This document shows positions 4,624 through 49,150 of a stretch of DNA of 64,000 bases, in pieces. The notes under the pieces were generated by a model. The model was not told where the DNA came from, made no database searches, and worked only from the letters and a program-made list of their open reading frames with translations. Numbering within the stretch: position 1 is the first letter of the stretch; each line of letters begins with the position of its first letter. Source of the DNA: Verrucomicrobia bacterium LW23 (lineage in GTDB: Bacteria; Verrucomicrobiota; Verrucomicrobiia; Methylacidiphilales; UBA1321); the NCBI GenBank assembly GCA_003054695.1, contig QAZA01000010.1:186001-250000 (forward strand), in the 5' to 3' direction. The position numbers and the translations under genes are program-made.

Positions 4624-4642
4624 TGATTCAATGCATTGATCA
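4624..4642. promoter_or_regulatory. Palindrome upstream of the Verru_Chthon cassette
   Basis: TGAT-T-CAATGCATTG-ATCA: a perfect 10-bp core with flanking 4-bp arms offset by one base. It ends 65 bp before the first prepilin-like start, in a position suitable for a regulator of the cassette. It shares the ATGCA core with the 4350-4367 palindrome, but whether the same protein binds both is not known. Confidence 0.3.
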
Positions 4643-4707
4643 CCGGACGCACAGCCCGCACCGTCCGCGCCCCTTCTCCCCCAACGCTTAAACATCAGGA
4701 AACTCCC

Positions 4708-5205
4708 ATGTTGCACTCTGCCCTCTCCCCAGTAGCAGGTAACAGCCGGCGCAGGCGCCGGAGCACATACGGCTTCAGCCTGGTCGAAGTCGCCCTGGCC
4801 CTTGGCGTGCTTTCCACCAGCATGCTTGGGATGCTCAGCCTCACGGTCGTGGGTATCAACTCCCTGCGCGAGGCGGTTGCGCAGACAGCCCAAACGGAGA
4901 TTCTCCAGCAGATTTCCACCGAGCTGCAGATGGTGGGCTTCGACAACATCGACAGCCACATTGCCGGTAAAACCTACTACTTTGGCAGCGAGGCGGAGCG
5001 GCTGGAGTCGCAGACGGCGGCCACGCGCTATAAGGTGACGATGGACCGGCAGTCCGCCGTGTTCCCCAACTCCACCAGCGGCGGGTCCATGGATCAAAGC
5101 CTGACGACGGTGCGCATCCTGATGACGCCGGTGATGGGCTCGGGCCCGACCGAAGGCAAGACGGCGATCTACGTGGTGTTTGTACCCAACTCGGGCTCGC
5201 TGTAA
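4708..5205 (+). CDS. Verru_Chthon cassette protein B (prepilin-like)
   Basis: A 165-residue type IV pilin-like protein. After a basic leader of about 20 residues (SRRRRRSTYG) comes the class III signal motif G|FSLVEVALALGV with the conserved Glu at +5 of the mature protein, so a prepilin peptidase could cleave between Gly and Phe. The hydrophobic helix that follows would anchor it in the inner membrane or pack in a pseudopilus. The start was placed at the ATG preceded by AGGA with an 8-nt spacer; a longer in-frame version begins at 4636. Gene order B-C-D-A and sizes match the Verru_Chthon cassettes (TIGR02598/02599/02596/02600) described from Verrucomicrobia. The role of the cassette is unknown. 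Confidence 0.85.
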   Translation: MLHSALSPVAGNSRRRRRSTYGFSLVEVALALGVLSTSMLGMLSLTVVGINSLREAVAQTAQTEILQQISTELQMVGFDNIDSHIAGKTYYFGSEAERLESQTAATRYKVTMDRQSAVFPNSTSGGSMDQSLTTVRILMTPVMGSGPTEGKTAIYVVFVPNSGSL

Positions 5206-33427: not shown

Positions 33428-35167
33428 CTACACAATCCGTATGCCCCGCAGATGCGCAGAGCACACGTGAGGGTCCTCAGCGCTGAGGGCTCTCGCCTCC
33501 GGAAAGCGCAGGGTAACCCGCGTATGCGTGTGGTCGTGCTCCATCTCCACCTTGTGCGTCGATCCCGCGGGCTCCAGCGTAATCTCGACAGCCTTTTCCC
33601 CCTCCACAGCAATGGTTGCCTGCATGGGCTGCCACGTGGCCGGGCTGCCAAACTCCAGCGTTAGTGTTGACCCACGGGAGGAGGCCCCCAGGGTAAACTT
33701 GGTTTCCTCGCCGCACCAGCCGTCGCGGCGCATGCCGGAGCAGCCAGGCATCGAGCGCGGAAAAAGGCCGTTCACGGGCTCCAGCACCGTGGCGTAAAGC
33801 AGCTGCACCAGGCGCGCCTCCAGAATCTTCTTCTGCGCGGCCAAAGCTGACGCCATCGCGTCGTCCCCGGCCTTGATCAGATCCAGGTCCGAAAGATCCT
33901 TCAGCAGGCGGAAGGTCGGGAGGTGCGAGACGACGTGCGGAAACGTGTCGTCCAGCATTCGCAAATCGCGTCGCACGGCTTCCAATTCCCCCGCATCCCA
34001 CTTGAGCGCAAGGGGAAGCAACTGGGCGCTGACGATGCTGTAAAGCTCGCGCGTTTCCTGCTCCGGCGAGATAAAGAAGCGATGCGTGGTCACCTCCCCC
34101 GGCAGCGCGCTGGTTGCGCCAACTTCCGTCAAGCGCTCCTCCAGCACCTTAAGCAGGCTGTCCGACTTCTCCCGACCATAGCGCACGCGTTGCCCGGGCA
34201 GCGCAAAAGGCAGCTGGGGATCGCCGTAGCGAATGCCCTGGTGATCGGCACCCTGCTCTGTGTTGCTGATGATTGTGTAATCCGTAGCGCTAAAGTAGGC
34301 AATTTGCGCGTACCCGGCCAGCGAGCCCAGGAAGAGATTGCACGCGTTGATGAAGGCGATCTCGTGCCCGATGCCCATGCCCAGCGCGCGCAGGCTTACC
34401 ACATTGGGCAGCCGAAGCAACGCCAGCGGCTTCTCCTGAAGGCGCCCCAGTACTACAAAGCGCACGTGCGGAAAAGCCCGGGCCGTCCGCTCCATAAAGT
34501 GGAACCACTGCGTGAAATCCTCGTCGCGGTCGAAATCCTGGCCCGATTCGGACGGCTTCAGCCCGGAATCCAGCCGCTTGAGCCGCGAGTGCACGGCCAC
34601 CCAAAAGGTCTTCTCCGGGTAGCTCCCCTTCAGGGCTTCGATATCCGTGGCGCACTCCGGAACAATGCGCAGCCGGGGGCGGTTGCCCGTCTCGCGAAAC
34701 CAGTCGTTAATCTCCGCGTGCATGGAGCACTTGCTGCGGTGGAAAGCGACAACGGCCTGGGGATTCTTGCGCTTCTCGTAAATCTCCAGGTGCTCCGCGT
34801 AAGTGGCCCTGGCGGCCGGATCGGTGGCGGCCAGCTTTGTCCAGAAGTCGTCAAACGCCTGCCGCGAGGAGTGGAGCGTGAGGCTGGAGAACAGAGGGTG
34901 CGAGGTGAATGCGGACACCAGCTCCATCATAAAGAGGTCGGTAGCATGGGCCAGCGGCATCAGGATGGTGCAGCCGGACGCTTTCACGTCGCACACCAGA
35001 TGCACATGCACGCCCTTGCGGCCGGCCGCCTGGCAGCGCAGGGCCGATTTCACGCACCACGTCATCGCATCTCCCAGGCCAAAAGGCAGGATGGAAAAGT
35101 CGTGAATGTCGTGAAAGATCTCGGGCTCCGGGGCCGGCTTTGAGGTAAACAGACTCTTCAGGTTCAT
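33428..35167 (-). CDS. GT-B-like glycosyltransferase with C-terminal DGWC domain
   Basis: A 579-residue protein. The first 360 residues resemble GT-B (heptosyltransferase-like) enzymes: FSILPFGLGDAMTWCVKSALR at the N-terminus, TFWVAVHSRLKRLD in the middle, RFVVLGRLQEKP, and AFINACNLFLGSLAGYAQIAY in the donor-site region. Residues about 370-465 are helical. The end (about 470-579) contains CSGMRRDGWCGEE with DGWC at 482-485, followed by beta strands. It lies 40 bp downstream of the SDR/methyltransferase fusion gene on the same strand and probably ends that operon. The family of the enzymatic half was assigned by pattern only. Confidence 0.65.
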   Translation of the reverse strand: MNLKSLFTSKPAPEPEIFHDIHDFSILPFGLGDAMTWCVKSALRCQAAGRKGVHVHLVCDVKASGCTILMPLAHATDLFMMELVSAFTSHPLFSSLTLHSSRQAFDDFWTKLAATDPAARATYAEHLEIYEKRKNPQAVVAFHRSKCSMHAEINDWFRETGNRPRLRIVPECATDIEALKGSYPEKTFWVAVHSRLKRLDSGLKPSESGQDFDRDEDFTQWFHFMERTARAFPHVRFVVLGRLQEKPLALLRLPNVVSLRALGMGIGHEIAFINACNLFLGSLAGYAQIAYFSATDYTIISNTEQGADHQGIRYGDPQLPFALPGQRVRYGREKSDSLLKVLEERLTEVGATSALPGEVTTHRFFISPEQETRELYSIVSAQLLPLALKWDAGELEAVRRDLRMLDDTFPHVVSHLPTFRLLKDLSDLDLIKAGDDAMASALAAQKKILEARLVQLLYATVLEPVNGLFPRSMPGCSGMRRDGWCGEETKFTLGASSRGSTLTLEFGSPATWQPMQATIAVEGEKAVEITLEPAGSTHKVEMEHDHTHTRVTLRFPEARALSAEDPHVCSAHLRGIRIV

Positions 35168-35207: not shown

Positions 35208-37202
35208 CTACACGTTGCACGGCCCGTGGTAACGCACCGTACCGCCGCCCAGGCGCCGGATGATCTTGGCCGCAATGGGCGTGGGCTGAGCCACATACAC
35301 ATCGCTGTCCGGCGGAACCTGCGCGGGGCTGACAATAGGGACGCCGTTGTGCAACTGGCCGATACGGTTGGTGTCTTCGTCCACGTAAAACGCGGGCTTT
35401 TGACTAAGCTGCCCGGTCACCCACGTGCCGGCAATGGACGTGCCGAAAATGCCCCACGAGCGCGACTTCGCGGCCATCTCCGTGGCCTGGCGGACGATCT
35501 CGCTCAGCCACGTTACGGTTTCGCCGGCGGTCGCAGCGCCTTCGCCTTCGGTCGTGGTGGATGCGGCCGCGCTGCCGGAGGCATCCAGATTGGCCAGGAG
35601 GGAGAGCTCTTTGGTCACCCACGATTTGGTAGCCACCACAACGTTAAAGCCGGCCTTTTGGAGCAGGGCGGCGGCTGTTTCCACGCTAAAGTGGGTGGCA
35701 TGGTCGGCAATCAGCAGCTCAAACGGGTTGTCCTGGTAGGAGGGGAGCTCCACCAGCAGGAAGCCATCGGGGGCAAGCATGGAGCGAATCTGCTTCAGGA
35801 AAGGCAGCGGATTCTCGATATGCTCCAGCACGTGGATCAGGGAGATCAGGTTAAAGGTGCCGGGCACCTCTTCCAGGCGGCCGGTGTAAAGCGTATCGAA
35901 GCCGGGCAAGGCCGTGATCGTGGCTTTGTCCTTGTCGTCAAACTCCGTGCCGCTCAGCTTCCAGTCCGGGTAAAGGCGGCCAAAGGCTTTGATAAAACGA
36001 CCGTTGCCGCAGCCAATATCGAGCAGGTGGCCGGATTGCGGAAGAGGCGCGGCATCCCGCACGCGACGCAGCAGCCACTCGGAGCGCGGGAGCGTTTGGC
36101 CGGATTCGGAATCGAATACCTTCTGCTCTTCGCCGCCGCTTTGGTAGTAGATGGAGTAAGATTTGTAGATTGCTTCAATCTCCTTCTGCCATTCCTTATC
36201 GCACGAGGCCTGCACGGCGCCGCACGCCTTGCAGGTAAACAGCAGCCCGCCGGAGGCCCATATCTTGCTGTCCGACGTAATGCGTTGCATGGCACTGTAT
36301 TCCGTGTGCAGGTTGACATCGGTGCTACTGCAGATGTGGCACGTGAGAAGGCGATCGGACGGGGCGTGCATATTCAGAAAGAGGGAGTGAAGTGTGTTTT
36401 CGACAGAAGGCAATGTACGTCCGGGAAGAACCGTATAGGATGCAGACTTTTCGACAGGAATGGGACCGGAAGAACCCGGCCTGGAAACGGGTTGCACCAG
36501 TTGCTCAGGAAGCCCCTTGGCCCTGGCAAGCAGTAGCGCGGCCTCCGCATAGGATATCGAGCGATCGCCCGCAAGTAGCCACATGCCCGGCCTGAAATGT
36601 TGAAGCAGGCCGAGCAGCTCCGTTGTTACATACGAGAGCAGTACCGGCGAGAAACTGTAGTTATCAAAAGGCGCAATAACTTCGCCCTTTAGCAACGATG
36701 CATACCAGCGTTGAAAGAGGGGAAACTCCCCATGAATAACTTTGGACAGCTGAACAATGGCAACACGTGGCGAAAGTGCCTGCAGTTGCCGAACCGTCTC
36801 CGCCTTCTGCCGCCCGTACTCCGTGGAGGCGCCATCCAGGCTGGTGGTGGGGAAGATGATCGCTACTCCCCTCTCCAGCAGGCACTTGGCCAGCAAAACG
36901 GTGTTGGTTACATTAATTTGCCGCGTTCCAACGGGGTCGGCTTCGCACTTGTCGACACGTGTCTCCCCGGCACACAATATCGCCACGCGGCAGTCGCCCG
37001 GCAGCTCCCAGCCCGACGGCTGCGCGAGATCGAGGTGCCGGACATTCGCCGCGAGGGGGCCGGGCTGACGGGAGGTGCCGATCCAGCGAACGCCCGCCTC
37101 GTCGCAGGCTTTGGCAAGGCTTCTGCCCAGCAGGCTGGTGCAGCCGCAAATAAGCACGCCGGCATTGGCGGCGCTTGCGTTATTCGGATAGGGTGGCGTC
37201 AT
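35208..37202 (-). CDS. Fusion of SDR-type sugar dehydrogenase and C-methyltransferase-like protein
   Basis: A 664-residue two-part protein. Residues about 14-300 are a RmlD-like extended SDR: the NAD(P)-binding loop GVLICGCTSLLGRSL, ILCAGETRVDKCEADP, a Thr/Ser plus Tyr-x3-Lys pair in TTSLDGASTEYGRQK. Residues about 310-664 start with a CHIC...CKAC zinc site, followed by a SAM-binding motif LLDIGCGNGRFIKA, then a third Rossmann-like part (WGIFGTSIAGTWVTGQL, DSDVYVAQPTPIA). This three-part order is that of sugar C-methyltransferases (zinc-binding, methyltransferase, C-terminal domain). One polypeptide could therefore methylate and reduce the same nucleotide keto-sugar. It begins 36 bp after the first transketolase pair. 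Confidence 0.82.
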   Translation of the reverse strand: MTPPYPNNASAANAGVLICGCTSLLGRSLAKACDEAGVRWIGTSRQPGPLAANVRHLDLAQPSGWELPGDCRVAILCAGETRVDKCEADPVGTRQINVTNTVLLAKCLLERGVAIIFPTTSLDGASTEYGRQKAETVRQLQALSPRVAIVQLSKVIHGEFPLFQRWYASLLKGEVIAPFDNYSFSPVLLSYVTTELLGLLQHFRPGMWLLAGDRSISYAEAALLLARAKGLPEQLVQPVSRPGSSGPIPVEKSASYTVLPGRTLPSVENTLHSLFLNMHAPSDRLLTCHICSSTDVNLHTEYSAMQRITSDSKIWASGGLLFTCKACGAVQASCDKEWQKEIEAIYKSYSIYYQSGGEEQKVFDSESGQTLPRSEWLLRRVRDAAPLPQSGHLLDIGCGNGRFIKAFGRLYPDWKLSGTEFDDKDKATITALPGFDTLYTGRLEEVPGTFNLISLIHVLEHIENPLPFLKQIRSMLAPDGFLLVELPSYQDNPFELLIADHATHFSVETAAALLQKAGFNVVVATKSWVTKELSLLANLDASGSAAASTTTEGEGAATAGETVTWLSEIVRQATEMAAKSRSWGIFGTSIAGTWVTGQLSQKPAFYVDEDTNRIGQLHNGVPIVSPAQVPPDSDVYVAQPTPIAAKIIRRLGGGTVRYHGPCNV

Positions 37203-37238
37203 CCAATGGTTCCCGTGGTGGCAAGGGCAAGCGTCCGC

Positions 37239-38195
37239 TCACGTGACGTTGAGGCTTGCGGCGAGGGCTTGCTGGATGCGGGGGCCGAGGGCCTCGGGGG
37301 TGAGACCGAAGTGGGCGTTGGCTTCTTCGGTGTCGCAGGTTTTGTGCAGGAATTCGTCCGCCGTGCCGAAGCGCAGCAGGCGGGCGGGGAGCTCGGGGCG
37401 GTCCGCTTTCCACTCGGCGATGCTGCCGCCGAGGCCGCCAAGGACGCTGTGTTCCTCCAGCGTGGCGACGACGCGCGCGGTGCTGAACGCGCGGTGCAAC
37501 GTGTTTTCGTCCAACGGCTTAACGGTGTGGAAGCTGTGGACGGACGCGTGGATATCGCGCGCCTTCAGCCAGTCCGCCAGTGCGAGCGCGGTGGGCAGCA
37601 TCACGCCGGTGCTCAGCAGCGCCACTTCGTCGCTCTCCCCCTGGCCATGGCCGCCGCGCATGGGGATGGCTTTGCCCAGCGTAAACGCGGGGACGCTCGG
37701 ATGCACTACGGGTTCGCCCTTTTTGCCAATGCGGATGTAGGTGGGGTTCGGATCCTGCAGGCTGGCGCGAAGCGCGGCGCGCACTTCCTGGGAGTCCGCC
37801 GGCGCGACGACGTTGAGGTGCGGAAGCAGGCGCAGCATCCCCATCTCCTCGCACGAATGGTGCGTGGCGCCCAGCGAGGCGTACGCCAGGCCGGAGCCGG
37901 TGCCGACGAGAATCACCGGCACGTGATGATAACACATGTCCACGCGAATCTGCTCCACGCAGCGATACGTGAGGAAGGGCGCGATGGTGTAGCACACCGG
38001 CCGAAACCCCGCCATGGCGAGGCCGGCGGCCAGGCCGATCATGTTGGCCTCCGCAATGCCGCAGTTGTAAAAGCGGTTGGGGCACGCCTCTTTAAAGCGA
38101 TCGAACAGCCGGTTGCCGATGTCGCCGGCAAGCAGCACAATGCGCTCGTCCGTCTGGGCCAGGGCCGTGATTTCCTCTGCAAAAGCGTTTCTCAT
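37239..38195 (-). CDS. Transketolase C-terminal subunit, copy 1
   Basis: A 318-residue protein equal to the pyrimidine-binding and C-terminal domains of transketolase. The catalytic Glu for thiamine diphosphate activation is in YNCGIAEANMIGLAAG. The domain order continues with YTIAPFLTYRCVEQIR and a C-terminal transketolase_C domain (AVRs of ALLSTGVMLPTALALADWL type). Full transketolases are single chains of about 650 residues; here the enzyme is split into two adjacent genes, the N-terminal one 50 bp upstream. It differs from the second copy (41653-42609) at only four residues (Met/Leu, Ala/Gly, Arg/Ser, Ile/Leu). Confidence 0.92.
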   Translation of the reverse strand: MRNAFAEEITALAQTDERIVLLAGDIGNRLFDRFKEACPNRFYNCGIAEANMIGLAAGLAMAGFRPVCYTIAPFLTYRCVEQIRVDMCYHHVPVILVGTGSGLAYASLGATHHSCEEMGMLRLLPHLNVVAPADSQEVRAALRASLQDPNPTYIRIGKKGEPVVHPSVPAFTLGKAIPMRGGHGQGESDEVALLSTGVMLPTALALADWLKARDIHASVHSFHTVKPLDENTLHRAFSTARVVATLEEHSVLGGLGGSIAEWKADRPELPARLLRFGTADEFLHKTCDTEEANAHFGLTPEALGPRIQQALAASLNVT

Positions 38196-38245
38196 GGAAA
38201 AAAGTAGGGAAGTGAGTAAGCGTTTAATGCTAAAGGACTTAGAGC

Positions 38246-39115
38246 TTAGTGCGCCTTCTTCGGGCCGGAACCCGCAGGAATGACCGGCGCCGGAAGCCCC
38301 AGCTCCAGAAACGCCGCCGTTACCTCCGACGCCTTGGGGATGCGATAGTGCCAGTTATTGTCGTCCTCCATAAAGGAGACGCCCTTGCCCTTCACCGTAT
38401 GCGCGATAATCGCCAGCGGCTTGCCCGAGGGGTGCGGCACTGTGGCAAGCGCGCCTGTCAGCGCTGCAAGATCATGCCCATCAACCTCTTGCGCATGCCA
38501 GCCAAAGGCGCGCCACTTCTCCACCAGCGGGGAGAGCGACGTGACTTCCTCGCTGCGGCCCGTGGCCTGCCACTTGTTGTAATCCACTATAACCACAAGG
38601 TTATCCAGCTTAAGCGCGGGGGCCAGCAACGCGCCCTCCCACACCGTGCCTTCGTTGCACTCGCCGTCGCTCAGCACCGTAAACACGCGGTAGCTTTGCC
38701 CGCGAATCTTCGCCGCAAGCGCCAGACCCAGCGAAATCGGCAACCCGTGGCCCAGCGATCCCGTCGCCAGCTCCACCCCGGGCGCGCAGTGCGGGCTCGG
38801 CTGCTCCGCCAGAGCGGCGCCATGCGTGGCGAACGTGTCGATCAGCTCCCGACCAAAAAAACCGTGCTCCGCAAGCACCGCATACAGCGCCATCGCCGCG
38901 TGCCCCTTGCTCAGGATCGCACGATCGCGCAGCGGATCCTCCGGAGCCTTCGGATCGATCCTCAGCGCCGCCCCATACAGCGCCACCAAAATATCCACCA
39001 CCGACAGCGACGACCCCAGATGCGGCGTCCCTGCACGGTGCGACATCATTATCACTTCCCCACGCATCCGCGCGGAGACTGCCGCAAGCTCACTGATCGT
39101 TTCGGTGCACTCCAT
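38246..39115 (-). CDS. Transketolase N-terminal subunit, copy 1
   Basis: A 289-residue thiamine-diphosphate-binding subunit. The TPP motif reads LSDGECNEGTVWEG, ending about 30 residues later in VDYNKWQ; SKGHAAMALYAVLAEHGFF and TGSLGHGLPISLGLALAAK are typical of transketolase N-domains. With the downstream C-subunit it would form a split transketolase that moves two-carbon ketol units between sugar phosphates or nucleotide sugars. It differs from copy 2 at two residues (Met17/Leu, Ser/Ala in IRGQxYRVF). The upstream flank is not a natural neighbour but the tail of a dehydrogenase gene carried along by the duplication. Confidence 0.92.
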   Translation of the reverse strand: MECTETISELAAVSARMRGEVIMMSHRAGTPHLGSSLSVVDILVALYGAALRIDPKAPEDPLRDRAILSKGHAAMALYAVLAEHGFFGRELIDTFATHGAALAEQPSPHCAPGVELATGSLGHGLPISLGLALAAKIRGQSYRVFTVLSDGECNEGTVWEGALLAPALKLDNLVVIVDYNKWQATGRSEEVTSLSPLVEKWRAFGWHAQEVDGHDLAALTGALATVPHPSGKPLAIIAHTVKGKGVSFMEDDNNWHYRIPKASEVTAAFLELGLPAPVIPAGSGPKKAH

Positions 39116-39136
39116 GATTGCGCAAAAGTATAAGGA

Positions 39137-39174
39137 TCACGGGTGCACGATACAATGAATTACTTCGCCGGAGC
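39137..39174 (-). pseudogene. 3' tail of the dehydrogenase gene left by the duplication
   Basis: Encodes the residues SGEVIHCIVHP followed by a stop, identical to the C-terminus of the dehydrogenase at 43551-44579. Nothing else of that gene is present here; immediately upstream (39175 on) the sequence is unrelated. It is a scar that shows the repeat was copied from the 41.6-43.6 kb site. Confidence 0.9.
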
Positions 39175-39254
39175 CACGGCCGGGCCGCTCGCCCTGCTGC
39201 CGCGCAGGGCCGCGCTCCGCTGCCCCTCCTCGCCCCGTTCTCCCCAATCCAGCT

Positions 39255-39917
39255 TTACTCGAAATAGATAAAGCTGTAGTCGCCCGTGTAGCCGGTTTGC
39301 TTAAACCACCACTCCCACTCCGCCGGGGTGCAAAACGCCTCGCACGTAAACTGCCAGTAGAGGAGATTCGCCTTCTCGGACTCGTTGCGGTAGGATTCCA
39401 CCACCAGGTACGCGTTGGTTTTGGTAACGCGCTGCATCTCGCGCAGGGCCGGGTCCAGCTCGTAGTTATAAAGATTGTGCAGCGTGTTGAGCGAGATGAC
39501 GAGGTCGAAGCTCTTGTCCGCAAACGGCAACTCCTTCGCATGGCCCTGGTGGAGGAACGGCTTGACTTCCTCCTTGGCGTGCTCGATGGCATAGCCGGAG
39601 ATATCCAGGCCGGCGACCTCGAGGCCTGGGACAGCCTGGGTCAGGTCGTACAGCAGGTAGCCTTTGCCGCAGCCGATATCCAGCACGCGCTGGCCGGCTT
39701 TGAGGTCGTAATGCTTGGCCAGGCGCTCGGCGACAGCCTTCCAGCGGCCGTCGTAACGCATTCCACCGTAACCGGTTTCGCGGCTGCCATCCCAGTAATC
39801 GTAGCCCCACTGCTTGGCCAGCTGCGCGACTTCGGCCTTGGGGCGGCCATTGACACGAGCCAGGTAGTCGCGTGTCGTCTTGGTATGGACGGGCGTAACG
39901 AAATCAATGTAGGGCAT
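39255..39917 (-). CDS. Class I SAM-dependent methyltransferase
   Basis: A 220-residue methyltransferase. Motif I is VLDIGCGKGYLLYDL, the acidic residue after strand 2 is in AGLDISGYAIEHA, and motif SFDLVISLNTLHNLYNYELD follows. The C-terminus (TPAEWEWWFKQTGYTGDYSFIYFE) resembles enzymes of the Methyltransf_11 group. It is 26 bp downstream of the APH-like kinase gene. The 80-bp gap between its stop and the duplication edge holds no feature. Confidence 0.85.
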   Translation of the reverse strand: MPYIDFVTPVHTKTTRDYLARVNGRPKAEVAQLAKQWGYDYWDGSRETGYGGMRYDGRWKAVAERLAKHYDLKAGQRVLDIGCGKGYLLYDLTQAVPGLEVAGLDISGYAIEHAKEEVKPFLHQGHAKELPFADKSFDLVISLNTLHNLYNYELDPALREMQRVTKTNAYLVVESYRNESEKANLLYWQFTCEAFCTPAEWEWWFKQTGYTGDYSFIYFE

Positions 39918-39943
39918 AAGAAAAAGGAAGCGTTGTGTACGGT

Positions 39944-41032
39944 TTATTCGGAAATAACAGGCTGCAGAAAATCGAAATCAACAGTAAGCGCGGCAAGGGA
40001 TCTCTTCGCTTTATCCAGCTGCAAGCGCTGCTTGTCGGCGCGGGCGCCGGAGGGACTGGCGAAGCGGCGGCGGTCCTTGCCGGTAGGGAGGAACTCGTTG
40101 AGCACAATGCAGCACCATTTAAGCTGGTACAGTGGCAGCAACAGTTGAATCTTCCCCGCGTCCATCAGATCCGGAAGTGCCTGCTGCAGAAGGCTATAGC
40201 TATGCCGCCACAAAGCGTGCGGCACGGGAAGCGCCGGCTGGCTGAGGAAATCGCAGAAGAACTTGGCGGGATCATCCACGCCCGCGTACTCAAAATCAAA
40301 GAAGTGCAGCGCGCCGGCGGAGTCGCTCAGCGCGTTGTGAAAGCCAAAGTCCGAAGGCGAGACGCAACGACGGGCAGCAGGCAACTCCTCGCTGAGGTTG
40401 GCGCCGGAGCCGCGGATGACGTCCCGCAGCTGGTCAAAGCACGGGCGCAGTCTCTCGGCAACAAACGCCGCGGCCTCCTGCTCCAGCGGCGTGATGGGCG
40501 GCTCGTCGTCGGAGCGCTCGCGCCGCGGATTCAGGCCGGTCTCCAGACGAAGCACGCGACGCTCCACGCAATCCAGATGCGTCTGCAGGGAGAAACATGC
40601 CTCGGAGGCTGGAGACATGTCGGCCCAGTTTGCATGCTGACCAGGCGGGTTCAGCGCGATGAAAAACTGCAGGGCCTGCTCAACGGAGTTCTCGCTGATG
40701 ACATCGACCGTGAGCTTGCGACCTTCGATCCACGAGAAAAGCCCCAGCCCGTGCGGGCGCGACCACGCGAGCGCGCGGGCGGTGCGCGGCTGCGCGGGGA
40801 GCTTGCCCAGGTAGGTGTAGAACGAGTTCTCGGCGTGAAAACGGTCGCGTGTGTCGCCGGGCGACTGGAAAAAATGCTTGAGCACCAACGGCGCGGTAAG
40901 AGCCTCGGCCTCAACGCGATAGACGCGATTATTCGCGCCGCCGGAAAGCGGCTCGACTGTAAAGCTGCCCGTGCAGCCCACGGATTCGAGGATTGCAGCG
41001 GTGCCGTCCGGCGGCTGAAAAGGTTCGCTCAT
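39944..41032 (-). CDS. Aminoglycoside-phosphotransferase-like (APH) kinase
   Basis: A 362-residue kinase-fold protein. The N-lobe has GGANNRVYRVEA, the catalytic loop is SPSDFGFHNAL (the family Asp, with His-Asn following) and the metal-binding segment FFDFEYAGVDDPAKFFCDFL. APH-like enzymes in glycan loci phosphorylate small sugars, alcohols or choline-like compounds; antibiotic resistance is not implied. It lies 4 bp from the HAD hydrolase gene upstream, so the two are probably translated from one message and could work as an opposing or sequential kinase/phosphatase pair. Confidence 0.85.
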   Translation of the reverse strand: MSEPFQPPDGTAAILESVGCTGSFTVEPLSGGANNRVYRVEAEALTAPLVLKHFFQSPGDTRDRFHAENSFYTYLGKLPAQPRTARALAWSRPHGLGLFSWIEGRKLTVDVISENSVEQALQFFIALNPPGQHANWADMSPASEACFSLQTHLDCVERRVLRLETGLNPRRERSDDEPPITPLEQEAAAFVAERLRPCFDQLRDVIRGSGANLSEELPAARRCVSPSDFGFHNALSDSAGALHFFDFEYAGVDDPAKFFCDFLSQPALPVPHALWRHSYSLLQQALPDLMDAGKIQLLLPLYQLKWCCIVLNEFLPTGKDRRRFASPSGARADKQRLQLDKAKRSLAALTVDFDFLQPVISE

Positions 41033-41035
41033 GTG

Positions 41036-41656
41036 TCAGGCGCTTACCAGGGCCGGGATCTCCGCCCACGAGTGAACGATGGTGTAATGCTCCGAGGGCC
41101 GGACGTTTTTCTGCGGATCGAAGAGGATTCGCCGAATGCCGGACGGAAACGCCGGATCGAGCAAGAACTCGGGGAGGTCATCGATAAACACCTGGCAGCC
41201 AAGGGCTTCCGCTCGCTGAGCCTTCTCGGTTTTGGTGGGGGCAAACCACACATTGCCGCGCGGCAGGCCGATGGCGCTGGAGTGGACACCCTGCGTCTCC
41301 AACCAGCGGCGGGCGGACTCGTGGAGGTCGACGGGCTCCCCCTTGATGGGGTAGCGCGTTTTGTGGCTGACGATGTGGAGGGTCCAGCCGCTTGCGATGC
41401 CTTGGCGGATGAAGTCGAGCGCGCCCGGGTAGGCTTCGGCCTCCACGATGCGGTTGCCGTACACCACGCCCTGCATCTCGGTCCACGCGGGTTCCCGGCC
41501 GATTTGGCGCAGGTAGTTGCGCACGGCGGTTTTGTTTACCGGCACGTCGTCGGGGATGAGCTTTTGCTCAGCGGCGACGCGATGGAACAGCGTATCGTAG
41601 CAAACGAGGGTGTTGTCGAAATCGATGCCGACGACGATGGGTGGTTGGGTGCTCAC
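41036..41656 (-). CDS. HAD-superfamily hydrolase
   Basis: A 206-residue phosphatase-like protein. Motif I is GIDFDNTL with Asp12 and Asp14; IVSHKTRYP supplies the motif II Ser, a Lys in PTKTEKAQR fits motif III, and motif IV is FIDDLPEFLLD. The start is GTG at 41656 and overlaps the stop of the second transketolase C gene by 4 bp (GTGA), which indicates coupling; longer versions of this frame run antisense-like through the transketolase gene and are not real. Copy 1 of the repeat keeps the GTG but not this gene, which shows that copy 2 is in its original setting. Substrate unknown; a sugar phosphate is likely. Confidence 0.85.
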   Translation of the reverse strand: MSTQPPIVVGIDFDNTLVCYDTLFHRVAAEQKLIPDDVPVNKTAVRNYLRQIGREPAWTEMQGVVYGNRIVEAEAYPGALDFIRQGIASGWTLHIVSHKTRYPIKGEPVDLHESARRWLETQGVHSSAIGLPRGNVWFAPTKTEKAQRAEALGCQVFIDDLPEFLLDPAFPSGIRRILFDPQKNVRPSEHYTIVHSWAEIPALVSA

Positions 41657-42609
41657 GTGACGTTGAGGCTTGCGGCGAGGGCTTGCTGGATGCGGGGGCC
41701 GAGGGCCTCGGGGGTGAGACCGAAGTGGGCGTTGGCTTCTTCGGTGTCGCAGGTTTTGTGCAGGAATTCGTCCGCCGTGCCGAAGCGCAGCAGGCGGGCG
41801 GGGAGCTCGGGGCGGTCCGCTTTCCACTCCGCAAGGCTGCCGCCGAGGCCGCCAAGGACGCTGTGTTCCTCCAGCGTGGCGACGACGCTCGCGGTGCTGA
41901 ACGCGCGGTGCAACGTGTTTTCGTCCAACGGCTTAACGGTGTGGAAGCTGTGGACGGACGCGTGGATATCGCGCGCCTTAAGCCAGTCCGCCAGTGCGAG
42001 CGCGGTGGGCAGCATCACGCCGGTGCTCAGCAGCGCCACTTCGTCGCTCTCCCCCTGGCCATGGCCGCCGCGCATGGGGATGGCTTTGCCCAGCGTAAAC
42101 GCGGGGACGCTCGGATGCACTACGGGTTCGCCCTTTTTGCCAATGCGGATGTAGGTGGGGTTCGGGTCCTGCAGGCTGGCCCGCAGCGCGCCGCGCACTT
42201 CCTGGGAGTCCGCCGGCGCGACGACGTTGAGGTGCGGAAGCAGGCGCAGCATCCCCATCTCCTCGCACGAGTGGTGCGTGGCGCCCAGCGAGGCGTACGC
42301 CAGGCCGGAGCCCGTGCCGACGAGGATGACCGGCACGTGGTGGTAGCACAGGTCCACGCGGATTTGCTCCACGCACCGGTACGTGAGAAACGGCGCGATG
42401 GTGTAACACACGGGCCGAAACCCCGCCATGGCGAGGCCGGCGGCCAGGCCGATCATGTTGGCCTCGGCAATGCCGCAGTTGTAAAACCGGTTGGGGCACG
42501 CCTCTTTAAAGCGATCGAACAGCCGGTTGCCGATGTCGCCGGCAAGCAGCACAATGCGCTCGTCCGTCTGCGCCAGGGCCGTGATTTCCTCTGCAAAAGC
42601 GTTTCTCAT
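41653..42609 (-). CDS. Transketolase C-terminal subunit, copy 2
   Basis: A 318-residue protein with the same features as copy 1, including the catalytic Glu in CGIAEANM. Only four residues differ between the copies, while many third positions differ, so both have been kept under protein-level selection or gene conversion. The 3' end overlaps the HAD gene by 4 bp. The N-subunit gene is 50 bp upstream. Confidence 0.92.
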   Translation of the reverse strand: MRNAFAEEITALAQTDERIVLLAGDIGNRLFDRFKEACPNRFYNCGIAEANMIGLAAGLAMAGFRPVCYTIAPFLTYRCVEQIRVDLCYHHVPVILVGTGSGLAYASLGATHHSCEEMGMLRLLPHLNVVAPADSQEVRGALRASLQDPNPTYIRIGKKGEPVVHPSVPAFTLGKAIPMRGGHGQGESDEVALLSTGVMLPTALALADWLKARDIHASVHSFHTVKPLDENTLHRAFSTASVVATLEEHSVLGGLGGSLAEWKADRPELPARLLRFGTADEFLHKTCDTEEANAHFGLTPEALGPRIQQALAASLNVT

Positions 42610-42659
42610 GGAAAAAAGTAGGGAAGTGAGTAAGCGTTTAATGCTAAAGGACTTAGCGC

Positions 42660-43529
42660 TTAGTGCGCCTTCTTCGGGCCGGAACCCGCAGGAATGACCG
42701 GCGCCGGAAGCCCCAGCTCCAGAAACGCCGCCGTTACCTCCGACGCCTTGGGGATGCGGTAATGCCAGTTGTTATCGTCCTCCATAAAGGAGACGCCCTT
42801 GCCCTTCACCGTGTGCGCGATAATCGCCAGCGGCTTGCCCGAGGGGTGCGGCACCGTGGCCAGCGCGCCCGTAAGCGCTGCAAGATCATGGCCATCAACC
42901 TCTTGCGCATGCCAGCCAAACGCGCGCCATTTCTCCACCAGCGGAGAGAGGGAGGTGACTTCCTCGCTGCGGCCCGTGGCCTGCCACTTGTTGTAATCCA
43001 CTATAACCACAAGGTTATCCAGCTTAAGCGCGGGGGCCAGAAGCGCGCCCTCCCACACTGTACCCTCGTTGCACTCGCCGTCGCTCAGCACCGTAAACAC
43101 GCGGTAGGCCTGCCCGCGAATCTTCGCCGCAAGCGCCAGACCCAGCGAAATGGGCAACCCGTGGCCCAGCGATCCCGTCGCCAGCTCCACGCCAGGCGCG
43201 CAGTGCGGACTCGGCTGCTCCGCCAGCGCCGCGCCGTGCGTCGCGAACGTGTCGATCAGCTCGCGACCGAAAAACCCGTGCTCCGCAAGCACCGCATACA
43301 GCGCCATCGCCGCGTGCCCCTTGCTCAGGATCGCACGATCGCGCAGCGGATCCTCCGGAGCCTTCGGATCGATCCTCAGCGCCGCCCCATACAGCGCCAC
43401 CAGTATATCCACCACCGACAGCGACGACCCCAGATGCGGCGTCCCTGCACGGTGCGACATCATTATCACTTCCCCACGCAGCCGCGCGGAGACTGCCGCA
43501 AGCTCACTGATCGTTTCGGTGCACTCCAT
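42660..43529 (-). CDS. Transketolase N-terminal subunit, copy 2
   Basis: A 289-residue TPP-binding subunit with motif LSDGECNEG. The start lies 21 bp downstream of the dehydrogenase stop, so the two are probably cotranscribed. This dehydrogenase-transketolase order is what the scar next to copy 1 preserves. The protein differs from copy 1 at two positions. Confidence 0.92.
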   Translation of the reverse strand: MECTETISELAAVSARLRGEVIMMSHRAGTPHLGSSLSVVDILVALYGAALRIDPKAPEDPLRDRAILSKGHAAMALYAVLAEHGFFGRELIDTFATHGAALAEQPSPHCAPGVELATGSLGHGLPISLGLALAAKIRGQAYRVFTVLSDGECNEGTVWEGALLAPALKLDNLVVIVDYNKWQATGRSEEVTSLSPLVEKWRAFGWHAQEVDGHDLAALTGALATVPHPSGKPLAIIAHTVKGKGVSFMEDDNNWHYRIPKASEVTAAFLELGLPAPVIPAGSGPKKAH

Positions 43530-43550
43530 GATTGCGCAAAAGTATAAGGA

Positions 43551-44579
43551 TCACGGGTGCACGATACAATGAATTACTTCGCCGGAGCGCATACGTGCAA
43601 TGCCGTCGTTGATCGACTCCAGCCCCATGCGATGCGAGATAAAGCCGCGCGGATCAAACCGGCCGTCGCGCATCATGCGGATGTAGCGCGGGATATCGAC
43701 CGCCGGCTCGCTTTCGCCGCCGTGGGAGCCGGTCAGCACTTTGCCGAAGTGCAGCGGCAGCGTGTTGATGGAGATGCGGCGCTCATGCTGCATAACGCCG
43801 AAAATGACGCAGCGACCGCGGGGGCCGGTCAACGTGTACGCCTTCTCGATGACGGAAGGCAGGCCGGTGCCGTCCACCACCACATCGGCCGTGCCGCCGA
43901 GGATCTCGCGTGCCGCGGCTTCGAAATCCGTGGTGGCCGAGTTGATGGTGTGCGTCGCGCCGAATTCTTTTGCCTTGGCCAGCTTGTGGTCCTGCAGATC
44001 GACCGCAATGATCGGGTGCGCGCCGGCGAGTTTGGCTCCGAGCACAACGCCCAGGCCGATACCGCCGCAGCCGACGATGACGACCGACTCCCCGATAGCG
44101 AGGCGCGCGTTGTTGGTAATGACGCCAAACCCGGTGGTCAGCGTATCCGCCAGCAGCGCGCATACTTCAAAGTCGGTGTCGCCGGGCACCACCGTCAGGC
44201 GGTTTTCGGAGACAACCGCGTACTTCTGGAACGTGGTGATGTTGCCCGCGTTTACCGTGGCGCCGTTGCGCGTGTAAACGCTGCCACCACCCTCGAGGCC
44301 CAGGCCCGCGCGCCAGTGAAGCACGGCGCGATCGCCCTGCTTGACACGCGTGACGCCGGGCCCTGCCTCCAGGATGGTCACCCCCGCCTCGTGCCCCAGC
44401 AGGTGGGGAAGGTAGCGGTCGGGGCCCTTCACGCCATCAATCTCGCCCAGTTGCGAGCCGCAGATGCGGGTAGCGCCGATTTCGACGAGCACCTGGCCGT
44501 AGCGCAGGGCGGGGATTTCGACTTCATCCAGCTCCAGCGGCTGCTTTTGGGCGACAAGAATCGCGGCGGGGGTCTTCAT
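43551..44579 (-). CDS. Medium-chain zinc-type alcohol dehydrogenase-like protein
   Basis: A 342-residue MDR-superfamily oxidoreductase. The catalytic zinc ligands Cys40 (RICGSQ) and His63-Glu64 (GHEAG) are present and the NAD-binding motif is VGCGGIGLGVV. The four-cysteine lobe that holds the structural zinc in classical alcohol dehydrogenases is missing: that region reads HWRAGLGLEGGGSVYTRNG. The frame opens with TTG two codons earlier, but the ATG at 44579 starts MKTPAAIL, the usual MDR N-terminus. In this setting it may oxidise or reduce a sugar or polyol phosphate linked to the transketolase reaction. Confidence 0.88.
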   Translation of the reverse strand: MKTPAAILVAQKQPLELDEVEIPALRYGQVLVEIGATRICGSQLGEIDGVKGPDRYLPHLLGHEAGVTILEAGPGVTRVKQGDRAVLHWRAGLGLEGGGSVYTRNGATVNAGNITTFQKYAVVSENRLTVVPGDTDFEVCALLADTLTTGFGVITNNARLAIGESVVIVGCGGIGLGVVLGAKLAGAHPIIAVDLQDHKLAKAKEFGATHTINSATTDFEAAAREILGGTADVVVDGTGLPSVIEKAYTLTGPRGRCVIFGVMQHERRISINTLPLHFGKVLTGSHGGESEPAVDIPRYIRMMRDGRFDPRGFISHRMGLESINDGIARMRSGEVIHCIVHP

Positions 44580-44618
44580 GGGCAATGTCTGTGAGGCAGA
44601 GAGGTCCGGCGGCGGCGA

Positions 44619-45563
44619 TCAGGCCAGGTTGGGGATGGTTTTCATCGTTTTGATGTTGAACCAGCGATCTTCCATCTTCAGCTTGCCGGCCTGGTAGGCG
44701 TCGATTACTTCCTGGATGCCGTCGGAGACCGTGAACTTCGGCTCAAAGCCTGTGGAAAGCAGCTTTTTGGAGGAGAGGCGGTAGGAACGCGGGTCGTTGG
44801 AGGGGCTCACCACGATTTCGCAGGGCACGCGATCCTTCACTCGCTGGGCGATTTCCAGCACGGTGATGTTCTCGAAGCCCGCGTTGAAGATGCCGGGGAA
44901 CTCCTGGCCCACCTTGAGGAAGTGGTGATACACGCGCACCATATCCTGCATGTGGATGTTGGGACGGGCCTGATCGCCGCCAAACACGGTGATGCGGCCG
45001 TTGGCCAGTGCCTGCATGGTCAGCATATTCACGGCGAGGTCCAGGCGCATGCGGGGGGAGTAGCCGCAAATGGTGGCCGGGCGCACGATATTGATGATGA
45101 TCTGATCCGCGTAGCTCAGCAGCACGCGCTCGCTCACCATCTTCGTTTTGTTGTAGTCCGATATGGGGACAAGCGAGAGATCTTCGGTAACTTCGGGCTC
45201 TTCCTTAACGCCGTACACGCTGCCGGAGCTGGCGTGGATGAACTGTTTGACGCCGGCCTTGATGGCGGCCTCGATGATCTGCATCGTGGCGAGGGCGTTG
45301 ACCTCCCAGTTGAGCTTGGAGTTCAGATCGCTGCACGGATCATTCGCGATGTTGGCCAGGTGAATGATCGTATCGATGCCTTCGAGCGGAATCGAGTCGG
45401 TCTCCCGGATGTCGCCCTGCACGACGCGAAGATTCGGATGTTCGGGGAGATAATTCCCAAACCACTGTATATCAAATACGGTTACCTTGTGGCCTTCTGC
45501 AAGAAGGCTGGGGGTTAACACTGTACCCACAAAACCGCAACCGCCTGTCACCAGTATGTTCAT
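44619..45563 (-). CDS. NAD-dependent epimerase/dehydratase
   Basis: A 314-residue extended SDR. The glycine motif MNILVTGGCGFVG is at the N-terminus, the active-site Ser cluster is ASSGSVYG and the Tyr-x3-Lys pair is in YNKTK. The C-terminal substrate domain has RPNIHMQDMVRVYHHF, typical of nucleotide-sugar epimerases. It lies 4 bp downstream of the nucleotidyltransferase/kinase gene and so probably acts on that enzyme's product, for example as a HldD-like or GalE-like epimerase; the exact reaction cannot be read. Confidence 0.9.
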   Translation of the reverse strand: MNILVTGGCGFVGTVLTPSLLAEGHKVTVFDIQWFGNYLPEHPNLRVVQGDIRETDSIPLEGIDTIIHLANIANDPCSDLNSKLNWEVNALATMQIIEAAIKAGVKQFIHASSGSVYGVKEEPEVTEDLSLVPISDYNKTKMVSERVLLSYADQIIINIVRPATICGYSPRMRLDLAVNMLTMQALANGRITVFGGDQARPNIHMQDMVRVYHHFLKVGQEFPGIFNAGFENITVLEIAQRVKDRVPCEIVVSPSNDPRSYRLSSKKLLSTGFEPKFTVSDGIQEVIDAYQAGKLKMEDRWFNIKTMKTIPNLA

Positions 45564-45567
45564 AGCT

Positions 45568-47112
45568 TTAGAAATTCAACAGACTCATTCCCGCCTTCAG
45601 CAATACTGCTTTTGAGATAGGCCGGGTATTGCCAACAATCTTGACTGCCTGCGCGCCGCCCAGCTGGCCAAGGAAGGTCACCAGCTCGTTGTGGTATCCT
45701 TTGGCGGCGCCAAGCGCGGCGATGGAGAAGAAGGCGTCGCCGGCACCCACGGTATCCGTAATGGAGGCTTCGAACGGCATCAGCTTGCTCGGCTTCTCGC
45801 CGTCCTTCAGGCCGATTGTCTCGACACCGCCTCGCGTCAGCCACGCATAGCTGCTGGAGAAGTTCTCCTTCAGCTTTTCCAGCGCATCCAGAATATTGAC
45901 GTGGCGCTGGCCGACGGCGAGCAGCATCTCAGTCTCATCCAGGCTAAAGCAATCCATGCGCTTGTATTGCCGGTTGATGATGTTAAAGCCGTGGTTGTTG
46001 CTGTTGGACTGGCAGTTTACCGCGAGGAACCTGGCGTGCTCCTGCACAAATTCGCGAACCTCCGGCTGCATGAGGCCGTGGCCGAAATCCATTACCATCA
46101 CAACATCGGCCTTCTCGATCTCGGCGCGAAGTGTCTCCATCACCCGGGCAATAAGCTCGGCGCGCGGGGGCTTGTCGTCGATGTAGTTGACGGAGAAGTA
46201 CTTGATCAACTCCTTGCCCTCCGCCTGCGGGGCCACAAAGCGGTGCTTGAGCACGGAGGTAAACGTCTCGTCACGCAACACCAACGAATCCTCGGGGGCC
46301 ACGTGAAGGTCGAGCTCCTCCTGCGCCCATGGCTCCGTGCCGAGGATGCTGACCAGCTTGACGTGGGGCGTGAACTCGCGCACATGCCGATACACCGCAA
46401 GCGTACCGCCAGGCTGCAGATCCTCGTACAGGTGCCGCGCGGATACGATGCTTGCTTTGGATGTAAGGCCCTGGACCTTTACATAGCTGTATTTATCAAA
46501 GATGATATCGCCAATAAGCAATACGCGTAGATCCTTCAGATCATCCACCGCCTGGCGGAATGTATCCGGCGGATACGTTACAGCAAGACTCTGGCAATAG
46601 CCCTTGATCGCTTCCGGCATGTGATCGAAGTGCTTGTTCAGCAGCTTCGTGGAGCTGAATACCACCGAACCGATATAGGAAACCCTGCCGCCAAACTTCT
46701 CAACCGTTGCAATATCATCCGCAATGTTACCCGTAACGTCATTGCTCTGATCTTCGTACTCCCGGCCTTTACAATAAATATCAGGCTGTACGCACTCAAT
46801 CGCCTCCACCGCGGCGCGGAACGGGATAACAACAACGTAATCCACACAGGCCAGCGCGGCGAGCGATTTAGCGCGAAGCTTATCGCTAAAGTAGGGGCGC
46901 CCCGGCCCTTTGTTGACGTACTTCTCCCCGGTAATCGTCACCACCAACACATCACCCAGAGCGCGCGCCTCCTCCAGGTGAAAGATGTGCCCGGGATGGA
47001 CCAGATCGAAGGTACCGTGGCACTGGACGACTCGAAGCCCTTCGCCGCGCAATTGCCGGAAGATTGCGCTTGCCTCTTCGAAGGGTAACAGTTTGGAAGC
47101 GATAGACGTCAT
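45568..47112 (-). CDS. Bifunctional nucleotidyltransferase / PfkB-type sugar kinase (HldE-like, domains in reverse order)
   Basis: A 514-residue fusion. Residues about 25-170 are a cytidylyltransferase-like domain with HGTFDLVHPGHIFHLEEA (HPGH at 39-42). Residues about 200-514 are a ribokinase/PfkB-type kinase with a late GAGDAF motif at about 456-461 (SITDTVGAGDAFFSIA). HldE of Escherichia coli has the kinase first and the adenylyltransferase second; here the order is opposite. The likely job is to phosphorylate a sugar phosphate at C1 and attach a nucleotide. The ATG at 47112 was chosen because the upstream 39 codons look untranslated; no strong ribosome site is visible. Confidence 0.85.
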   Translation of the reverse strand: MTSIASKLLPFEEASAIFRQLRGEGLRVVQCHGTFDLVHPGHIFHLEEARALGDVLVVTITGEKYVNKGPGRPYFSDKLRAKSLAALACVDYVVVIPFRAAVEAIECVQPDIYCKGREYEDQSNDVTGNIADDIATVEKFGGRVSYIGSVVFSSTKLLNKHFDHMPEAIKGYCQSLAVTYPPDTFRQAVDDLKDLRVLLIGDIIFDKYSYVKVQGLTSKASIVSARHLYEDLQPGGTLAVYRHVREFTPHVKLVSILGTEPWAQEELDLHVAPEDSLVLRDETFTSVLKHRFVAPQAEGKELIKYFSVNYIDDKPPRAELIARVMETLRAEIEKADVVMVMDFGHGLMQPEVREFVQEHARFLAVNCQSNSNNHGFNIINRQYKRMDCFSLDETEMLLAVGQRHVNILDALEKLKENFSSSYAWLTRGGVETIGLKDGEKPSKLMPFEASITDTVGAGDAFFSIAALGAAKGYHNELVTFLGQLGGAQAVKIVGNTRPISKAVLLKAGMSLLNF

Positions 47113-47486
47113 ATCGTTAGAGTCTGCATTCGTAGTCCGGTCGTAAGCCGCGAAGTAACAGGTTGATAAAGTGAGGCGTGGAAGCTTTAAGGGAAGGCCG
47201 GATAATAAGGAAAGGTACAAATGGATCAATCATAAAGATCCAGATGCCCCCGAATAGCCTTAACGGCTAAATTGATCCCCGCCTTTTGCTCCGGCCCGCC
47301 TGCGGCCCGCTGTCAAACAAGGCTGGTACCCGATAACATCCCAAGTTTCGGATCTGGTGCGTTCAAAAAGGCTCAACGCCAGGGCGCGACGAAGAAGAAT
47401 ATTGGATTAATATTCGACTGAGGAGCAACGCGGGCGCTGGGTCTTTTTCAGCGCGTCAGATGCGAAAATTAGGCTGTCATAGGGTG
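47113..47486. other. 374-bp gap with two small hairpins
   Basis: No gene. TAGCC-TTAAC-GGCTA lies at 47255-47269 and GAATATT-GGATT-AATATTC at 47397-47415. The gap separates the dehydratase gene (upstream on the minus strand) from the nucleotidyltransferase/kinase, so a promoter for the latter is expected here, but no clear -35/-10 pair was found. Confidence 0.4.
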
Positions 47487-48491
47487 CTAAGCCTTGTGAA
47501 TATAGTCGAACGGCTGCGCCTTCAGCGCCTCCAGATTATTGCGCACCCAGTCGATCGTTTGCGCCACACCCGTCTCCAGGCTCACGGCGTCCGCCCAGCC
47601 CAGCTCCCTGCGAGCGCGCGCGCTGTCCAGAAAATACGCGGCATCCTTGCCCGGTCGGTCATCCACCACGTTCACCACGTCGTCAAACTTAACACCCATG
47701 CTGGTGCAAATCATCTCCACGAGATCGCGGATGCTAAGATGGCGCGGCGTGGAGAGGTGGTAGCAGGCACCGGGCTCGGCACTCTCCGCCGCCTGCAGCG
47801 TTGCGGCCGCCACGTCGTCAATATGGATAAACGAGCGCACCGAGTGGCCGCCGCCATGCAGCTCCAGCTTCTTGCCCAGCATTATGTACAGGATAGTGCG
47901 CGGGATAATGCGATACAGCTGCTGGCCCGGGCCATACACATTGGCGGCACGCGTCCAGATAACGGGAAACTTATGTTGCTGAAGGAAGGTACGCAGATGC
48001 AGATCGCACGCCGCGCGCGATGCCGCGTAAGGCGTGCTGGGATTGAACGGCGCGCTCTCATCTATAAGGCCCGACGTATTGCCATACACCTCCGGCGTGG
48101 AGACATGTACGTACTTCTTTAAATACGCAGCCTTGCGAAGCCGGTTATGGAAACAGACATTGCCTACAACATTCGTCTGGTACCAGTGCTCCGGATGTAA
48201 CCAGCTTTGTGCCACCATTCCCTGGGCAGCAAAGTTAACCACATAGGCCGGCTGAAAGTCGTCCAGCGCCGTCATCAGGCGATCCAGGTCCTGATTCAAG
48301 TCCGCCTGTACAAACTGAAAGCCTGCCTGTTGTTCCGTATCCAACCAGCGGTAAGGAAGAAACACCGTAGCGAGTTCATCGGAACGGCTGGCACCCAATA
48401 CATCATGTCCCTGCGCCAGGCAGTGACGAACAAAGCTTGCGCCGGAGAAGGAGTTGCTGCCGATAACAGCAATACGCGGACGGGAATTCAT
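47487..48491 (-). CDS. NAD-dependent epimerase/dehydratase, RmlB/Gmd-like
   Basis: A 334-residue extended SDR. The N-terminal motif IAVIGSNSFSGASFVRH is a variant of GxxGxxG. NFAAQGMVAQSW and STPEVYGNT match nucleotide-sugar 4,6-dehydratases. The catalytic Tyr is in TPYAASRAACDLHLR, where the usual Lys four residues after Tyr is replaced by Arg (codon CGC). RSFIHIDDVAAATL and a C-terminal DRPGKDAAYFLDSARARRELGW follow as in dTDP-glucose dehydratases. It may make a keto-deoxy sugar for the WecE aminotransferase, but the Lys change makes the activity uncertain. Confidence 0.85.
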   Translation of the reverse strand: MNSRPRIAVIGSNSFSGASFVRHCLAQGHDVLGASRSDELATVFLPYRWLDTEQQAGFQFVQADLNQDLDRLMTALDDFQPAYVVNFAAQGMVAQSWLHPEHWYQTNVVGNVCFHNRLRKAAYLKKYVHVSTPEVYGNTSGLIDESAPFNPSTPYAASRAACDLHLRTFLQQHKFPVIWTRAANVYGPGQQLYRIIPRTILYIMLGKKLELHGGGHSVRSFIHIDDVAAATLQAAESAEPGACYHLSTPRHLSIRDLVEMICTSMGVKFDDVVNVVDDRPGKDAAYFLDSARARRELGWADAVSLETGVAQTIDWVRNNLEALKAQPFDYIHKA

Positions 48492-48565: not shown

Positions 48566-49150
48566 CTACTCCGCAACAACACCAGCAGGGCAACCGGCCC
48601 GCCTCAACTGCCTTACGACCATATGTCCCACAACCATCTGAACATCCTCAGCAATCTGCATATCGTTAACGGCAAAATGCAGGGGAATATCCGCAAGCGC
48701 TTTGCTTTTTCCACCTGTAAAACCAAGCACAGCAGCACTCGTAACACCAATCTCCTTAGCCACCTTCAAAACTTCCACAATATTGGGTGAGTTACCGCTG
48801 CCGGAGAAAACAATAAGCACATCCCCCGGCCTGGCCAGCGTGCGCAATTGATAGGAGAACATATGCTCGTAGCCCACATCATTTGCCAGGCACATCATAA
48901 CCGACGTGTTACTACAAAGCGAGTGAACGCGAATACCGTTTTTGTAATGTAAGCCAGTGCCACACAAAAAGTCATTCGCAAGATGGTTTGCCGAAGCGCC
49001 GCTACCACCGTTGCCACAAATAAAGATCTGATCTCCCCGCTCCCAACAACGGAGCAGGACATCATACAGGGGCTCTACCTGCGTCCAGTCAAACGACTCT
49101 AATACTTGCGCCAGCTGGCTCGCATACGAGCTAAAATTGCTTTCTCCCAT
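48566..49150 (-). CDS. gmhA: SIS-domain phosphoheptose isomerase-like protein
   Basis: A 194-residue sugar isomerase. The sugar-phosphate loop GNGGSGASANHLANDF is in the same place as in GmhA, followed by VGYEHMFSYQLRTLARPGDVLIVFSGSGNSPN and a late QIAEDVQMVVGHMVVRQL helix with the expected Glu/His-like polar residues. GmhA converts sedoheptulose 7-phosphate to D-glycero-D-manno-heptose 7-phosphate. Together with the HldE-like enzyme and the transketolase pair downstream it suggests a heptose-like branch. It is 74 bp upstream of the dehydratase gene on the same strand. Confidence 0.82.
   Translation of the reverse strand: MGESNFSSYASQLAQVLESFDWTQVEPLYDVLLRCWERGDQIFICGNGGSGASANHLANDFLCGTGLHYKNGIRVHSLCSNTSVMMCLANDVGYEHMFSYQLRTLARPGDVLIVFSGSGNSPNIVEVLKVAKEIGVTSAAVLGFTGGKSKALADIPLHFAVNDMQIAEDVQMVVGHMVVRQLRRAGCPAGVVAE

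Follow-up and report, generated by a model that had tools for sequence, protein, structure and literature searches.

A duplicated split transketolase gene pair inside a putative surface-glycan cluster of Verrucomicrobia bacterium LW23

In a 64,000-nucleotide stretch of the Verrucomicrobia bacterium LW23 genome (contig QAZA01000010.1, positions 186,001 to 250,000; hereafter the window, to which all coordinates refer unless stated otherwise), the two genes of a split transketolase, tktN and tktC, occur twice as a direct repeat. Based on the observations described below, we consider it highly probable that the repeat arose by segmental duplication within one gene cluster, that copy 1 is the derived copy, that both copies are constrained, and that sequence was exchanged afterwards. 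The genome is a 6.6-Mb draft of 56 contigs, and the window lies inside contig C10 (411 kb). The repeat and the genes that it contains are as follows.

37237..39174, minus strand: copy 1 of the direct repeat, derived; gapless match to copy 2, missing at the same place in the relative G005
41651..43588, minus strand: copy 2 of the direct repeat, ancestral position; dehydrogenase and HAD flanks as in about 19 related loci
38246..39115, minus strand: tktN1, transketolase N-terminal subunit (binding the pyrophosphate of thiamine diphosphate, ThDP), 289 aa; Pfam Transketolase_N and the N chain of 6yak, both matched through its 99.3%-identical copy
37239..38195, minus strand: tktC1, pyrimidine-binding/C-terminal subunit, 318 aa; Pfam Transket_pyr and Transketolase_C, matched through its 98.7%-identical copy, and the C chain of 6yaj/6yak
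42660..43529, minus strand: tktN2, 289 aa; Pfam Transketolase_N, best PDB match 6yak, N chain
41653..42609, minus strand: tktC2, 318 aa; Pfam Transket_pyr and Transketolase_C, C chain of 6yaj/6yak

When the two segments were aligned, they matched without gaps at an offset of 4414, with 66 mismatches in 1,938 bp (96.6% identity), and directly outside both ends the identity dropped at once to a background of about 0.2-0.35. Such identity over 1.9 kb rules out chance as the origin of the repeat, and two co-linear copies with distinct flanks in one genome constitute a paralogous direct repeat. Self-comparison of the whole 64 kb revealed no second repeat of this size, and the draft genome contains exactly two tktN-tktC copies, both in the window. 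One distant homologue lies elsewhere in the genome (33% identity, an open frame of 698 codons) and is probably a full-length transketolase, judging from its length. A search of viral contigs returned a single match, which was distant and partial.

The domain arrangement is that of a split transketolase, with Transketolase_N on one chain and Transket_pyr together with Transketolase_C on the other. The translated copies differ at 2 of 289 residues in TktN (M17L and S141A) and at 4 of 318 in TktC (M87L, A140G, R241S and I259L; numbering 1-based, copy 1 to copy 2). In the alignment with 6yak and 6yaj, the histidines, the acidic ThDP/metal motif and the glutamate of the C-subunit pyrimidine domain are retained and are the same in both copies, while the GDG motif has Ser in place of its first glycine. 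Since these active-site residues are conserved and equal, both copies are expected to be active as enzymes. A reading made earlier from the nucleotide sequence (the original prediction) had the coordinates, the offset and the gapless alignment exactly right, and its residue counts agree with the translations. The genes and the gene remnant flanking the two copies are the following.

39137..39172, minus strand: scar upstream of tktN1, the last 11 codons and stop of the dehydrogenase (SGEVIHCIVHP*), identical to 43551-43586
43551..44585, minus strand: complete zinc-type alcohol dehydrogenase (ADH_zinc_N/ADH_N) upstream of tktN2, at the same place in relatives
41036..41656, minus strand: HAD-like gene with a GTG start overlapping the tktC2 stop; weak Pfam HAD match, downstream of tktC in relatives
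39944..41032, minus strand: APH-type phosphotransferase (Pfam APH) between the copies
39255..39917, minus strand: methyltransferase, upstream neighbour of copy 1; in G005 no transketolase lies between it and the next gene
35208..37202, minus strand: fusion of an RmlD-like protein and a methyltransferase, downstream neighbour of copy 1; its G005 homologue adjoins the methyltransferase

The tail of the dehydrogenase without the rest of the gene is found at copy 1 only, and the complete gene stands at copy 2. In about 19 of the loci examined, including G005, tktN directly follows the dehydrogenase, and on contigs that extend far enough tktC is directly followed by the HAD gene, as at copy 2. G005 is the nearest relative compared (same family, 70-75% protein identity). 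Its only tktN-tktC pair stands where copy 2 does, and about 26 bp separate its methyltransferase from the homologue of the gene that follows copy 1 here. The single-copy state at this place was also seen in other relatives with this gene order, and tktN directly after the methyltransferase was seen in none of the loci examined. Taken together, the scar, the conserved synteny and the one-copy state of G005 indicate that the insertion of copy 1 separated the methyltransferase from the fusion gene, and they support copy 2 as the ancestral position and copy 1 as derived.

This direction had been proposed in the original prediction from the scar SGEVIHCIVHP, which is located at copy 1 as described, with the full dehydrogenase at copy 2; the overlap that it noted between the HAD start (41656-41654) and the TGA of tktC2 is also present. 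It had further suggested looking for the one-copy state in relatives, and this state was found, as in G005, always at the copy-2 place. Its statement that copy 2 is the source holds for the position only, copy 2 having at least as many derived residues. Among the polarisable residues, one is derived in copy 1 (Met87 of TktC) and two in copy 2 (Ser241 and Leu259). Of the silent codons that match an outgroup, 28 are nearer copy 1 and 23 nearer copy 2, showing no asymmetry with outgroups that are distant. Neither copy is clearly the faster-evolving one.

Both copies are open from end to end and intact. The nonsynonymous divergence between them (dN) is 0.006 in both genes, and the synonymous divergence (dS) is 0.164 in tktN and 0.108 in tktC. 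The resulting dN/dS values are 0.038 and 0.052, respectively, and those of the same genes in single-copy ortholog pairs are 0.03-0.16. Because the values between the copies fall within the ortholog range, the small number of residue changes is not special and reflects ordinary purifying selection, usual for these genes. Without constraint on one copy, dN/dS should lie near 0.5; the observed values are far less, indicating strong constraint, and this excludes that either copy was neutral for long, provided that the divergence did not originate in another strain. The original prediction had called for this calculation and had read few residue changes beside many silent ones as suggesting selection or gene conversion. 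Purifying selection, at an ordinary level, is borne out. Conversion is not shown in this way, since it would erase the silent changes too, and this contrast between paralogs should by itself not be taken as evidence of conversion.

Evidence of the proper kind comes from the distribution of the silent differences, which the original prediction did not report, although it had named conversion tracts as something to look for. The silent differences are unevenly spread, with an index of dispersion of 2.4-2.5 for both genes together (P < 0.001) and of 5.3-5.6 for tktC alone, in which one run of 30 degenerate sites holds 13 differences. A two-rate model, implemented as a two-state hidden Markov model, was better than a single rate by 14 log-likelihood units and delimited two dense tracts.

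38345..38861, minus strand: dense tract 1, 34 differences in 517 bp
37752..37998, minus strand: dense tract 2, 20 differences in 247 bp

Together the dense tracts hold 54 differences in 764 bp and are about 7% diverged, while the alternating sparse tracts (39174-38862, 38344-37999 and 37751-37237) are nearly identical, with 12 differences in 1,174 bp. Within the sparse portion, the dehydrogenase scar and leader show no difference over 59 nt, and the tktN-tktC spacer shows one in 50. Six of seven ortholog pairs used as controls showed no strong clustering. This spread of differences points to recombination, either between the copies or with a diverged allele. After the duplication the copies may have exchanged sequence by homologous recombination, or one of them may have taken up tracts from a diverged allele, and such exchange would explain why nearly identical tracts alternate with tracts that are about 7% diverged.

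How the patchwork arose can be read in two ways. The duplication may be older, dating from the approximately 7% divergence of the dense tracts, with internal gene conversion having reset both ends and the middle while both copies were under selection throughout. We regard this as evenly balanced between true and false. The even split of the outgroup-matching silent codons (28 versus 23) and the patchwork of dense and sparse tracts favour it, as does the position of the copies, since recombination acts readily on direct repeats separated by only 4.4 kb. Against it, conversion must have produced no fewer than three tracts, and the intervening genes must repeatedly have escaped loop-out. Alternatively, the duplication may be young, its age given by the roughly 1% divergence of the sparse tracts, with the dense tracts representing a diverged allele of another strain that recombined into one copy, in which case dN/dS would report selection in the donor lineage and not on two resident copies. 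The unchanged state of the functionless dehydrogenase scar and non-coding leader, together with the single change in the spacer, is what a young duplication predicts, but an old duplication with three conversion tracts gives the same pattern. Moreover, an outside donor is required and none was found, and the outgroup comparison marks neither copy as foreign. We hold the young duplication to be the less probable of the two, though still a serious candidate.

Several points weigh against the in-cluster duplication as a whole. Since the genome is a draft (56 contigs), one has to consider an artefact of assembly or strain mixing, in which the allele of a second strain was misplaced. We think this very improbable, because the repeat lies inside a 411-kb contig with two different pairs of flanks, its 66 differences keep the copies separable, and the allele of another strain should bring its own dehydrogenase and HAD flanks rather than a methyltransferase and a truncated dehydrogenase tail. 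In addition, the one-copy state comes from relatives outside the genus, at no more than about 70-75% protein identity; the seventh control pair (L022/L031) also has clustered silent differences; and that the enzyme is expressed and active, and that its dose matters, are deductions. A different outcome, in which the second pair acquired another substrate or mixed tetramers a new property, could draw on the six residue differences between the copies. Most of these are conservative or fall at positions variable among orthologs, and the aligned active-site residues are unchanged, so that functional divergence is highly doubtful.

For the preferred reading, in-cluster duplication, the edges of the repeat suggest how it may have come about. 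A segment with the complete pair (5' leader, tktN, spacer and tktC) would have been duplicated inside its own sugar-biosynthesis cluster, starting 11 codons inside the dehydrogenase end and arriving 4,414 bp downstream, between the methyltransferase and the next gene. The unit is compact, keeping the 21-bp tktN leader and the spacer to tktC and ending 2 bp past the tktC stop. It could have been produced by a single copying event or by tandem duplication of a 4.4-kb unit with subsequent loss of the second HAD-APH-methyltransferase set, and both routes would leave the same picture. At the repeat edges we saw no transposon hallmarks (target-site duplication, flanking direct repeat or terminal inverted repeats); no inverted repeats were detected in the window from 30 to 50 kb at the thresholds used, and the open reading frames adjoining copy 1 carry no transposase domain. 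The 80-bp GC-rich spacer at the copy-1 edge was considered as a dispersed repeat or REP-like element and rejected; its genome matches are weak and, where inspected, fall in GC-rich, repeat-like (collagen-type) stretches, and its RNA fold is not unusual (z -1.1). We suggest that both copies would make the same ThDP-dependent α2β2 transketolase, supplying or modifying a surface-glycan sugar, and that the immediate effect may be a raised dose of the split transketolase.

The cluster around the repeat appears to serve a surface glycan and to encode a heptose-like nucleotide-sugar pathway. In transcription order, it comprises a GmhA-like isomerase, a 4,6-dehydratase-like short-chain dehydrogenase/reductase (SDR), an HldE-like nucleotidyltransferase-kinase, an SDR and the zinc-type dehydrogenase, followed by tktN2, tktC2, the HAD-like gene, the APH-type kinase, the methyltransferase, tktN1, tktC1 and the RmlD-methyltransferase fusion. 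Beyond the cluster lie glycosyltransferase and additional methyltransferase genes. A scan for promoters and terminators gave nothing above shuffled sequences.

48566-49150: GmhA-like isomerase, first of the cluster in transcription order
47487-48491, minus strand: 4,6-dehydratase-like SDR, neighbour conserved in relatives
45568-47229, minus strand: HldE-like nucleotidyltransferase with PfkB kinase, neighbour conserved in relatives
44619-45563, minus strand: SDR, neighbour conserved in relatives; the upstream cassette part spans 44619..48491

The cassette (39255-48491 in the window) recurs in more than 12 bacterial phyla with its gene order shuffled. Across 80 loci with tktN and tktC (L004-L083), the SDR was found in 68, the dehydrogenase and the HAD gene in 67 each, the methyltransferase and the 4,6-dehydratase-like SDR in 62 each, the APH gene in 61 and the HldE-like gene in 53. 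Our literature search found no description of the cassette or of its sugar product. With regard to the neighbours, the RmlD-like and methyltransferase parts of the fusion gene match separate stretches of G005 in reversed order. Three large proteins without a Pfam match (28530-30185, 31307-33403 and 33428-35167) have a stretch of about 45-125 residues in common, and one of them carries the TIGR04372 glycosyltransferase domain; a 745-codon G005 homologue of the third stands between APH and methyltransferase genes.

Among 384 class-level genomes searched, 54 gave a strong tktN match and six gave two matches, and near-identical tktN copies in one cluster were found only in the present genome among these 54. 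The second matches in G319, G204, G251, G350 and G362 lie on separate contigs, not in one cluster. Two contigs of G362, C32 (L127) and C5 (L128), carry nearly the same cassette with tktN 99.75% identical, reflecting either a redundant contig or a duplicated cluster. In L054, a Planctomycetota locus, positions 2540-2864 and 4575-4900, on either side of about 1.7 kb, are direct repeats with 83% identity that hold the 3' end of tktN and the 5' end of tktC; this is an independent partial duplication or its remnant. It is conceivable, though rather unlikely, that the gene order of the cassette has repeatedly been reshuffled through duplication of its split transketolase and subsequent loss of one of the two copies, with this genome as an intermediate and L054 as a second, independent remnant.

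The value of the present case lies in its clarity: the direction of an in-cluster duplication can be inferred from the scar of a gene tail, relatives confirm it, and recombination tracts are visible in the copies. The duplication is an ordinary instance of a well-known process, and the original prediction had mostly read it well. The wider cassette, spread over more than 12 phyla, is more interesting than the duplication, and its sugar merits biochemical study.

Intragenomic duplication with partial gene conversion or concerted evolution is known in prokaryotes, including lasting cases (PMC6053082). As in those cases, the paralogs here are closer to each other than to any ortholog, and near-identical and diverged tracts alternate. 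The present repeat differs in being a two-gene unit placed three genes away within a biosynthetic cluster, and long persistence is not implied. The enzyme itself resembles the split transketolase of Carboxydothermus hydrogenoformans, which is active once reconstituted as an α2β2 tetramer (PMC7661550), in having separate N and C subunits that align over nearly their full length with 6yaj/6yak. In contrast to that system, the pair sits in a surface-sugar cassette and is present twice, and the host genome has an additional 698-codon transketolase-type gene. Split transketolases were described in the same paper as confined to archaea and some thermophilic bacteria, whereas the loci surveyed here show them to be common in the sugar clusters of many bacterial phyla. 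Finally, the cluster resembles the ADP/GDP-heptose genes (GmhA, HldE and a GmhB-like HAD protein) in having a GmhA-like isomerase, an HldE-like protein and a HAD-like protein. However, the GmhA-like and HldE-like proteins score far under the NCBIfam cut-offs, the HldE-like protein has its domains in the opposite order, and the cluster adds a dedicated transketolase, a zinc dehydrogenase, an APH-type kinase and a methyltransferase.

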